Positions 446-5,700 of a stretch of 10,432 nucleotides of DNA are shown here, piece by piece (the first letter of the stretch is position 1; every line of letters starts with the position of its first letter). Position numbers and translations under genes: made by a program. The notes under the pieces are model-generated. The model was not told the DNA's origin. It worked only from the letters and a program-made list of their open reading frames with translations, and did no database searches. Source of the stretch: Acidithiobacillus sp. (GTDB lineage Bacteria; Pseudomonadota; Gammaproteobacteria; Acidithiobacillales; Acidithiobacillaceae). The stretch is taken from assembly GCA_028065135.1 (NCBI GenBank), contig JAPTWR010000170.1, positions 1-10,432 on the forward strand, read 5' to 3'.

Positions 446-1171
446 TCATTCTCCCAATGCTTGGTAAATTGGCGCCACACCTTCAGCCCAGGCGTTGTCT
501 ACCCACCGTTTTACCGCCTGGCGCTCAATAATGGAAAGCCCAACATCTGCGGTGACGATCTCAGAGAATGGCATTTGAATTTCCCGGACCTTGCTAACTA
601 CGCGTTCCGTGAGGCCTGGCAACGTCACCTCCAGACCGCCGCTTTTCAACCACGCATCACGCGCTTTGTGGGTAGCCCACGGCAATGCGGCGGCGGCTTT
701 TAACCGGGTATTCCGCACCGCCACTTTCAGATTGGCGAGTTCACAGAGCTTGCTTTGCATACTGAGCCGCGCGCTATCTTCACCAACGTCTACCATCCAG
801 CAAACCACCAGTTTATAGCCCAGCCCTTCGATGGCCGGAACAATCAAGTCAGCCTGTGCATCAAGCGTCTTTCCCGCACTGGCGGGCGTATTTATGATGA
901 TATGGGAATCACCATCAACGCCGCGTTCGATTTCATCAAACAGTGCAACAATCGCGTCTTCCGACATATCTGGTCGCGCCAAATCCACGGCCATAATGTC
1001 CATGTCTGGGCTGTTCTCAAACCGTGGCGCAACATCGAAAATGGTGCTGTCTCCCTCGACCAACGCTGCCTTCCCGAACGTGTGCAACACATAGTCAGTT
1101 GCTAACGCGGCGAAAGTGGATTTACCGACGCCGCCCTTATCTCCGTGTACAACTAAAATGCTCTTATCCAT
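446..1171 (-). CDS. stbB: ParA/StbB-like P-loop ATPase
   Basis: A 241-aa cytoplasmic ATPase of the ParA/MinD superfamily. The deviant Walker A motif GDKGGVGKST is at residues 10-19, with the signature lysine K12 and the P-loop lysine K17. A Walker A'-like VEGDST is at 38-43 and a Walker B-like strand IIINTPAS at 91-98, where the usual aspartate is replaced by asparagine. Length fits StbB of R388-type plasmids and other small ParA proteins. There is no N-terminal DNA-binding extension, so DNA contact would depend on a partner, most likely the helix-turn-helix protein encoded just upstream. In R388, StbB is reported to influence plasmid positioning and conjugation (family knowledge). The start at 1171 follows TAAGGAG, which overlaps the stop of the upstream gene; the gap is 12 bases, so the two are one operon. 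A generic ParA partition role without an StbB relationship is the alternative. Confidence 0.88.
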   Translation of the reverse strand: MDKSILVVHGDKGGVGKSTFAALATDYVLHTFGKAALVEGDSTIFDVAPRFENSPDMDIMAVDLARPDMSEDAIVALFDEIERGVDGDSHIIINTPASAGKTLDAQADLIVPAIEGLGYKLVVCWMVDVGEDSARLSMQSKLCELANLKVAVRNTRLKAAAALPWATHKARDAWLKSGGLEVTLPGLTERVVSKVREIQMPFSEIVTADVGLSIIERQAVKRWVDNAWAEGVAPIYQALGE

Positions 1172-2450: not shown

Positions 2451-2705
2451 ATGATTCCGCCAACGCCAGATGAAATTCGCATTGGTGGCGGGGTCGCGCA
2501 CTTTGCCAAAAAGTCGATCCAGTCCGCCGTTGCACGGGCATTGGCTGGCGATAAACACGATCAGGAAATGCTTATCAATAGCCGTTTTCTCTCTGCATTT
2601 TTCAATTACATCAATGAAGACCTGGAGAGAAAAGCCGCGCAGGCCATCACGCCGACCGTCGGTAATGGCGACGGTCTTAAGCATAATGATGAGGTTGCGC
2701 CATGA
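2451..2705 (+). CDS. Small helical protein, coupled to traI, unknown
   Basis: An 84-aa product. GGAAAAGGGG lies eight bases before the ATG. The stop overlaps the traI start as ATGA (2702-2705), so traI is probably translated by coupling to this gene. After a short PTPDE start the chain is predicted helical: FAKKSIQSAVARALAGDK, then EMLINSRFLSAFFNYINEDLERKAAQ, ending in a polar tail. No metal-binding, membrane or signal motif is visible, and I do not recognise the family. A relaxosome accessory or regulatory role is possible from position only. Confidence 0.75.
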   Translation: MIPPTPDEIRIGGGVAHFAKKSIQSAVARALAGDKHDQEMLINSRFLSAFFNYINEDLERKAAQAITPTVGNGDGLKHNDEVAP

Positions 2706-5700
2706 TCCGGAACACTCACCTGACCGGATCACCGGTCGCTGTTGCCAAATATATGGAAAGCAAGCACGAAGAGCACCTTACGCGCTCCGGAGAGGTCAAA
2801 GCGACCGGCTACTACTCAATGAGTGGTGGTGCCCCGTCTGAGTGGTTTGGAAAGGGTGCCGAAACACAGGGTCTTATCGGGGCGGTGTCTGCTGAAGATA
2901 TGGTTCGTGCGCTCTCGGGTACCGTGAAACATACCGGCGAGGACATCGGTACGCGCGGTGGTCAAACGGCTGAAACCCGGCGGATGGGCGAAGAACTCAC
3001 GATTGCTGCGCCGAAGAGCGTTTCCATTATGGCCGTGGAAGATCCGCGTATTGTTCAGGCTCACCAAAGGGCCGTACGGGCGGTCATGAAGTACGTGGAG
3101 TCCGAAATGGTGCATGCCAGGATAGGAAAAGGCGGAGGCAAAGGTAATGACTTCAACGGAAATTTAACGGCGGGGCTTTATGTGCATGAAGACGCCCGCG
3201 ACTCCACATCTGAGCGGGTAGCTCCGCACCTCCACACCCATGCCATCATCTCAAATATGACGCAACGGTCCGACGGCCAATGGGTCGGACTGAAACTGGA
3301 CTGGGGTCACAACAACGAAAAAAAGATGGCCGCCGATGCCGTTTACAAAGCGGAACTGGCCCGAGAGGTCAAGGATCTTGGATACCAGATTGAAAAAGGC
3401 AAGGGTACTGATTTTGAAATTGCAGGCATCACTCGTGAGCAAATTGAATACTTTTCCCCGCGCTCCCAGGACATAAAAAAAGAGATCGGTGGAGAACGGG
3501 ACGCTGTATCGCCGAAAGAGCGGCAGGCTGCCCAGAACAAAACGAAGGGCAACAAGTCCACCCTCAATCACATTGACCAACGCTATGCCTGGCGCCGCGA
3601 ATTTCGTGAGCAAAACATGGACCTTCACGCCATCCATGATGACGCTCTGCGACGTCATACCGCAGGTATCCCCGCATCCCAGATAACGGCGGAGGATGCC
3701 CTTAAATCCGCGATTCGCCATTTGAGTGAGCGCGACAGTGTTTTCAGTGAATCTGCTCTAAAGTCCGAAGCCCTGGCGTCCGGACTTGGTGACATTTCCT
3801 ATGTGGATGTTCAAAAGGCCATAAAGGAATGTGCGGGCGGACTGGTGTCCGCAGGCAAGGGCGAAGGGCTTAATGAGCGTCAATTCACGACAAAACACGA
3901 CATTTATAGAGAAGCAGAAATCCTGAAAAGAGCCGAAGGCGGAAAAGGTCAAGCACAGTCCCTTATAAATATAAACCATGAAGAAAAGGAAAGCGTTGTA
4001 CAACCAGATGTTTCATTTACCCAGCAGGAGATTCAAGATGGAAAACGGCGATACAACAGCGACGACACAATCAGCGGTCCTCAAGAAGCTGAACCACTCA
4101 CCAGCCACGGCATGCGGGAATTGTCCCAATGCCGTATGGATGCAAAACGAATCGGGGAAGATTCAAGTGTTTTGCATGGTGATGAGGGCCTTGATAGATC
4201 AGGAAATCAGGGTTTGCGACGGGCAGTTGATGACGAACGAGTAAGCAAAGTGATAGCCGAACGCGAGGCCCGCCAAGGCTTTACGTTCAGCCAAGGCCAG
4301 CGCAATGCTGTCGCTCTGGCCCTGACTACCGAAGATCAGCATATCGGCATCGTGGGCGCCGCCGGGGCGGGCAAGACGACGGCCATGGCCGCGATTGTTG
4401 AGCAGTACAAAGCGGCAGGGTTTGAGGTTATAGGCGTTGCGCCTAGCGCCGCAGCGGCGAAAGAACTGGAATCGGCAGGGTGCGATGACACCCGCACCCT
4501 GGCGTCCGCATTGCTGCAGAAGCAGCAGGAAAAGGACGGGGAACAGCCACCCAAAAGACTATACGTGATGGACGAGTCGGGCATGGTGTCAGCAAAAGAC
4601 ATGGATGCTTTCCTGAAAAAAACTGATTCAGAAGGCGCGAGATCAATTCTAGTCGGTGATCCCTTGCAACTGGCGGCGGTCGAAGCGGGCAGCCCGTATG
4701 CGCAAATGCTAAAAACGGGAGCCATCGCGCACGCGAACATCGACGAAATCCAACGCCAAAAAGACCCGCAACTGCGTGCCATTGCCCAGGCTTTTGCCCG
4801 GGGCAATGCCGCTGCTGGTGTAGAGCTTGCTAGGCCGTACATGGTGCAAGTCCAAGCCACCGATCAGGATTTTGCGGAAGCGGCGGTGGACAGGGACGCG
4901 GGAAACGCCCCGCCGGACGCAAAAGCAACTGAAAAAATGCTGGATTTTGCGGCGGATCACGGCTGGAAGGGCTCTGATAATTTTGCCGACGTTCGCAAGT
5001 TTTTAGACGCAAAGGCCTACGAAATAGAGCTTAATAACGGCACGGCGGACGTACCCAAGGCCCCGCCAGCGGTTAGGCAAATTGCTTTGGCCCGTGCCGC
5101 GGCCAATGCATACCTTGATCTATCTCCGGACGAGCGCAGCAAAACGTTGTTGCTTGCGGGCACCAACGCAACCCGGCAAGCGATCAACGAAAAAATACGC
5201 GATGGGTTAAAACGTGAGGGTACCCTGGGCGATTGTGCGGTAAAAATAACAGCCATGGACAAGCTGGATCTCACCCGAGAAGCCGCGACCAGGGCCGAAA
5301 ACTACACAAGCAAAGACGGCGCGCAGGTGGTCGTGCAATTTAACACCGACCTCAAAAATAACGATCCCGGAAAACACGGCGGTGCGCCGCTGGCAGCGGA
5401 AAAAGGCAGTCAGTGGACAGTAACCGGCACTGCGAGCGGCAAGCTGCAACTGCGAAGCCTCACCGACCCGTCAAAAACACTGGAAATGCGCCCCACGGAT
5501 GCAAAAATAAGCGCCTACGCCGTCCGGGAAATGGAGCTATGCGCCGGGGATCGGGTGATGTTCCGGCAAAACAATAAAGATCAGGGAGTGAACAACGGCA
5601 CGCACGGCACTGTAATTATTGACCAAAACGGCAAGGCAAGCGTTAAAACTGACACAGGGCAAATCGTGGCGCTGGATGCCTGGCGCGGGCAAACGATTGA

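Follow-up and report, generated by a model that had tools for sequence, protein, structure and literature searches.

RSF1010 (MobB) and ColE1 (MbeB and MbeD) have small mobilisation proteins whose genes, like the nested gene analysed here, occupy a second frame of a relaxase gene. In IncP plasmids the comparable protein is TraH, which in RP4 is the acidic product of a different reading frame inside traI and is described as stabilising TraJ-TraI at oriT (PMC7314908), and traH is likewise given as relaxosome-stabilising in a paper on an IncP-1beta plasmid (PMC3614916). The MobF relaxosomes described comprise TraI, TraY, TraM and IHF in F and TrwC, TrwA and IHF in R388 (PMC12117103). The gene studied here resembles the TraH genes of RP4 and R751 (IncP) in that it is homologous to them, lies in the +1 frame inside a relaxase gene (as at IncP loci L008 and L009) and has its own ribosome-binding site. 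It differs in that IncP TraH measures 120-141 aa at the three IncP loci measured and carries an acidic N-terminal extension, whereas the product described here has 68 aa and lacks the extension, and in that IncP traH lies close to the C-terminal end of its MOBP relaxase gene rather than between the relaxase and helicase parts of a MobF gene. The host class likewise departs from the RP4-type relaxosome, which combines a MOBP relaxase (TraI) with TraJ, TraK and TraH. Unannotated TraH-type ORFs detected elsewhere belong to the same family, with the same Cys, Trp and CDG residues and the same +1 frame, but lie in other relaxase classes and at other positions in the gene.

The window, by which is meant the whole stretch of DNA analysed, comprises 10,432 nucleotides of an Acidithiobacillus sp. 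contig (JAPTWR010000170.1), with the features collected in Table 1.

Table 1. Features of the window around the nested TraH-type gene (positions are those of the window).
Feature	Position	Strand	Basis or remark
P-loop protein	446..1171	-	weakly like IncP TraL (30% over 139 aa, E 2e-4); divergent from traI
84-aa ORF	2451..2705	+	overlaps traI start by four bases
traI, MobF relaxase-helicase, 1138 aa	2702..6118	+	Pfam and NCBIfam MobF
TrwC relaxase domain PF08751, aa 16-303	2747..3610	+	Pfam, E 5.9e-70
TraI extra stretch, aa 422-513	3965..4240	+	unaligned to other MobF TraI; carries nested gene
Ribosome-binding site AGGAG	4026..4030	+	7 nt 5' of nested ATG
Nested TraH-type gene, 68 aa	4038..4244	+	+1 frame of traI; homology, nesting, constraint
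Codons Cys26, Cys29, Cys46, Cys60	4113, 4122, 4173, 4215 (span 4113..4217)	+	invariant, 97-row alignment
Helicase AAA_30 PF13604, aa 529-709	4286..4828	+	Pfam

A preliminary description of this DNA had claimed a 68-codon +1 frame within traI, an AGGAG seven bases before its ATG and a four-cysteine pattern, and all of these were found as described, the cysteine spacing being C-x2-C-x16-C-x13-C (residues 26, 29, 46 and 60). The +1 frame is already open from 3975 and an in-frame ATG at 3978 would give 88 aa, but the conserved start signal is the one at 4038. Residues C26, C29, P30, W34, C46, M49 and C60 are invariant both among 60 and among 97 aligned members, and the cysteine quartet probably holds together a small fold stabilised by a bound metal or by disulfides. 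The pI of the window product is 5.2, with IncP members at 4.1-4.3 and Desulfovibrionaceae-type members at 7.7-8.5. The product matched no family in the Pfam, NCBIfam or PHROG models (0 in each library), and structure models of the nested TraH-type protein gave no usable fold.

The ORF by itself is weak evidence because synonymous shuffling of the traI codons often yields +1 ORFs of this length, 1423 of 2000 shuffled versions of the gene containing an ATG ORF of at least 68 aa in that frame. The 4038-4244 stretch itself was open in 192 of the 2000, and in 33 of the 2000 it was open and also encoded a comparable four-Cys pattern. The case for a nested gene therefore rests on comparison, that is, on a conserved family and on the pattern of constraint.

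A check for stand-alone homologues, proposed in the preliminary description, was run with the 68-aa product and returned one relative, the separately predicted protein P0002 (68 aa, 71% identical). A translated search of a plasmid collection, with the E cutoff set loosely at 10, matched 904 of 72,556 records, and 60 rows spread over the ranking of these were examined for the annotation under the match. A relaxase-type name (relaxase, TraI, LPD7-domain protein, MobP1 or MobQ) lay under 50 of them, while seven were unannotated and one each was an AAA ATPase (L001), a hypothetical protein and an ABC transporter; in three rows, from IncP-type plasmids, the match fell under traI and traH both. A profile built from nine members (the window product, P0002 and seven plasmid members) matched the annotated TraH of two IncP-type plasmids with E values of 1e-16 and 1.2e-16. 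Searched against a large protein set it returned 489 proteins at E <=0.001, and among the 120 of these listed, four bear the name TraH in a source (P0003, P0012, P0038 and P0100), P0038 being the UniRef 'Protein TraH'. The matches to annotated TraH and the description of the RP4 protein together mark the nested ORF as a TraH relative, and there is very little doubt, as far as sequence comparison goes, that its product belongs to the TraH family. This kinship to RP4 TraH goes beyond the earlier four-cysteine reading and agrees with its suggestion of a possible modulator of TraI; nothing found here spoke for its other suggestion, a modulator of the host.

Scanning of 34 sources (the window and L001-L033) with the profile gave a match in 29, and all 29 lay in the +1 frame of the longest overlapping ORF; the match was absent from five, namely the MobF plasmids L010-L013 and L021. 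These figures are no estimate of frequency, because the sources were mostly fetched as family matches and eight of the 29 positives had helped to build the profile, with L020, L029 and L030 repeating others. By Pfam the hosts are MOBP in L002, L015, L017 and L028 (Relaxase PF03432), MOBQ in L006 and L031 (MobA_MobL) and MobF in the window. The hosts in L001, L003 and L024 contain LPD7 and no nuclease domain at E 1e-5, and PLSDB types L003 and L024 as MOBP. Unannotated TraH-type ORFs occur in IncI2, IncX4, Polaromonas, Vibrio and Desulfovibrionaceae sources and in MOBQ genes of Selenomonas and Klebsiella.

The position within the host gene varies, from ahead of most of the nuclease domain (L014-L016 and L019), between TraI_middle and LPD7 (L002), between LPD7 and TraI-like_C (L028, and similarly in IncP at about codons 583-650 of 752), between LPD7 and MobA_MobL (L006) and beyond the best MobA_MobL stretch (L031) to between relaxase and helicase in the window. 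At L017 and L018, in contrast to loci with full nesting, the TraH-type ORF lies across the 3' end of the relaxase ORF and continues beyond its stop. For seven placements to share one frame the chance is about 1 in 64, if placements are independent and frame is random. An ATG with a Shine-Dalgarno match of at least 5 nt was present at 12 of 26 loci (the 29 less L020, L029 and L030) vs 32 of 1046 ATGs in the host ORFs, with the best start picked at each locus, which favours the loci over the control.

Unannotated TraH-type ORFs were also seen in the LPD7 relaxase genes of IncX4 and IncI2 plasmids of E. coli and Salmonella (L003, L027, L032 and L033); mcr-1 adjoins the relaxase gene in L033, and L027 is an mcr-1 plasmid by name. 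In Aminobacter pSR8 (L025, IncP-type) traI looks interrupted, as the host ORF has just 184 codons and the traI region is without an annotated CDS.

Selection on the nested frame should show itself in conserved relaxase third positions, which are second positions in the nested frame, and in variable relaxase first positions, the nested wobble. Such a flip in codon positions was found inside the nested stretch in all seven DNA sets, five of them non-overlapping, which comprise only loci groupable by similarity and all lie outside the lineage of the window. In the Desulfovibrionaceae-type MOBP genes variation at first and third positions was 0.250 and 0.168 inside the nested stretch and 0.191 and 0.439 after it, and in IncP-1 none of 112 four-fold sites varied inside it vs 239 of 739 before it. 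The IncI2 set also shows the flip (0.121 vs 0.022), but its four-fold sites are nearly invariant after the nested gene too (42 of 961 vs 64 of 290 before), and therefore the contrast there lies in the stretch before and in the flip of positions. For the lineage of the window, pairs of TraI proteins at identity of at least 0.85 (71 of the 74 close homologues, P0129, P0134 and P0160 being omitted) gave first-to-second position counts of 90:44 in the nested stretch vs 469:360 (p 0.02) and third-position counts of 1 of 135 vs 66 of 895 (p 0.001), these p-values assuming an independence that codon pairs do not have. The signal can be seen clearly only in these close pairs and weakens at an identity of 0.75 (193:139 in the nested stretch).

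Among the best 120 of 154 matches listed for the TraI of the window, 74 form a close set (P0123-P0196, 42-100% identity) and 46 are distant. One of the close TraI is identical to that of the window, and those with a named organism are all from Acidithiobacillus. Written as a pattern after the family had been seen, the footprint that the nested Cys, Trp, Met and CDG residues leave in TraI-frame proteins was present in 71 of the 74 close TraI vs none of the 46 distant MobF proteins listed, and in 0 of 1480 shuffled sequences. At the CDG footprint TraI has R in 64 and W in 7, an exchange that is radical in TraI and silent in the nested frame. Loss of the motif beside an intact traI had been put forward earlier as evidence against the gene, and the TraI proteins speak mostly in its favour: P0129 and P0134 keep the Cys footprint and have lost that of CDG, while P0160 lacks the linker with the footprint and is otherwise full, so that TraI can exist without the linker. 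The nested gene is in this sense dispensable to TraI in some relatives.

The start signal has left a similar footprint. In the alignment, 72 of the 74 TraI have D, N, H or Y over the nested ATG and two have E, which is what a need to preserve xAT would predict; over the GAG of the Shine-Dalgarno sequence, 72 of the 74 have E. A pattern search for both found 68 of the 74, with P0138 and P0140 among the misses through a wrong anchor, and also 249 of 2731 control stretches of 75 aa. P0002, which comes from another contig, is encodable in the +1 frame by the DNA of the TraI P0136 with all 68 residues fitting, vs 43 misfits in the best of the 46 distant TraI. Between the window and P0136/P0002 the nested product is identical at 48 of 68 residues and the TraI frame over the same DNA at 36 of 69 (52%), so that the nested frame is the better conserved of the two; caution is needed here, as the helicase part of TraI is likewise just 54% identical, with the relaxase (aa 1-410) at 85%.

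The host TraI has the TrwC relaxase and helicase domains that the MobF family requires. At the nested gene it carries about 90 residues more than four other MobF TraI (Acidiphilium, Pseudomonas twice and IncN), in none of which the nested gene was found, and BLASTP against the Acidiphilium TraI aligned it in the pieces 14-421 and 514-718. A second stretch, aa 719-795, is also extra relative to these four and contains no nested sense ATG ORF of at least 60 aa, so that the presence of an additional linker is in itself nothing special for this TraI. When L015, a MOBP relaxase from Desulfovibrionaceae, is compared with three others of its class, the nested stretch stands out as an insertion close to the N-terminus. 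The pattern fits a putative DNA insert open in two frames, and a tree of the short proteins (24 of the 29 loci with P0002 and P0038) was too weak to indicate its donor. The 84-aa ORF upstream of traI had no family match and no recognisable TraJ in Pfam and NCBIfam. The layout of the P-loop gene and this ORF recalls the IncP gene order around oriT.

That a real nested gene lies between relaxase and helicase, as the preliminary description had proposed, has the support of homologues and of nested-frame constraint, and can be regarded as very probable. It is hardly credible that the ORF arose by chance in a polar linker, with its conserved residues serving TraI alone: the shuffles do yield long +1 ORFs readily, and occasionally the four-Cys pattern, but homologues exist in other relaxase classes, relaxase third positions and four-fold sites are conserved where first positions vary, the nested frame is the better conserved over the same DNA, and the R/W exchange at CDG is silent only in that frame. 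Programmed frameshifting, by which the relaxase domain would acquire a TraH-like tail and no free small protein would be made, could account for the +1 frame in all 29 detected cases and for the fact that this frame is open some distance upstream in several loci. It is nevertheless improbable, given that the footprint of the window's Shine-Dalgarno sequence and ATG is kept in the aligned TraI (72 of 74 at each key column), that Shine-Dalgarno matches are enriched at the best start of each locus, and that the annotation of IncP traH gives it a start of its own.

The function is less firmly indicated. Against an RP4-like role stands the fact that RP4 TraH pairs with a MOBP relaxase and TraJ, while the host here is MobF and no TraJ was recognised upstream; nor do the MobF relaxosomes as listed in PMC12117103 include a TraH-like part. 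A true TraH-family protein might on these grounds have some other job in the MobF system, in traI regulation, coupling-protein contact or an effect on the recipient, but this is rather unlikely, as the homology and the consistent nesting within relaxase genes suggest a role alongside the relaxase. The explanation preferred here, with a probability of roughly 0.7, is that of a translated small TraH-family protein acting as a relaxosome helper and carried into a MobF gene as a two-frame insert. The helper role taken separately is, from the sequence relationships, quite likely. Translation would begin by internal initiation on the traI message at the nested gene's own ribosome-binding site, and because it would be read from that message, helper and relaxase would be made together. 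By homology to RP4 TraH the protein would most likely join the relaxosome at oriT and stabilise contact of the relaxase with its accessory DNA-binding protein. The MobF lineage would have acquired the gene on inserted DNA that can be read in two frames, with the TraI-frame reading serving as a freely varying linker.

What is new is that a MobF relaxase gene carries a TraH-type overprint and that overprints of this type are more widely spread than annotation indicates. Among the open-access matches listed, judged by titles and the starts of abstracts, no report of TraH-type ORFs outside IncP was found, a weak negative with subscription papers mostly outside that set and the original RP4 work not covered. 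A more tentative possibility is that TraH is a widespread relaxosome component, a dual-frame cassette having moved among MOBP, MOBQ and MobF relaxase genes into several domain junctions with the +1 frame kept; its spread would then have escaped notice owing to the overprinting. Annotation readily passes over nested genes, and therefore many plasmid maps, including those of IncI2 and IncX4, may lack a conserved part of the relaxosome. For some MobF relaxosomes the finding suggests a further component, and an overprinted gene found in different host genes in one constant frame would make the origin and movement of overlapping genes testable by sequence.
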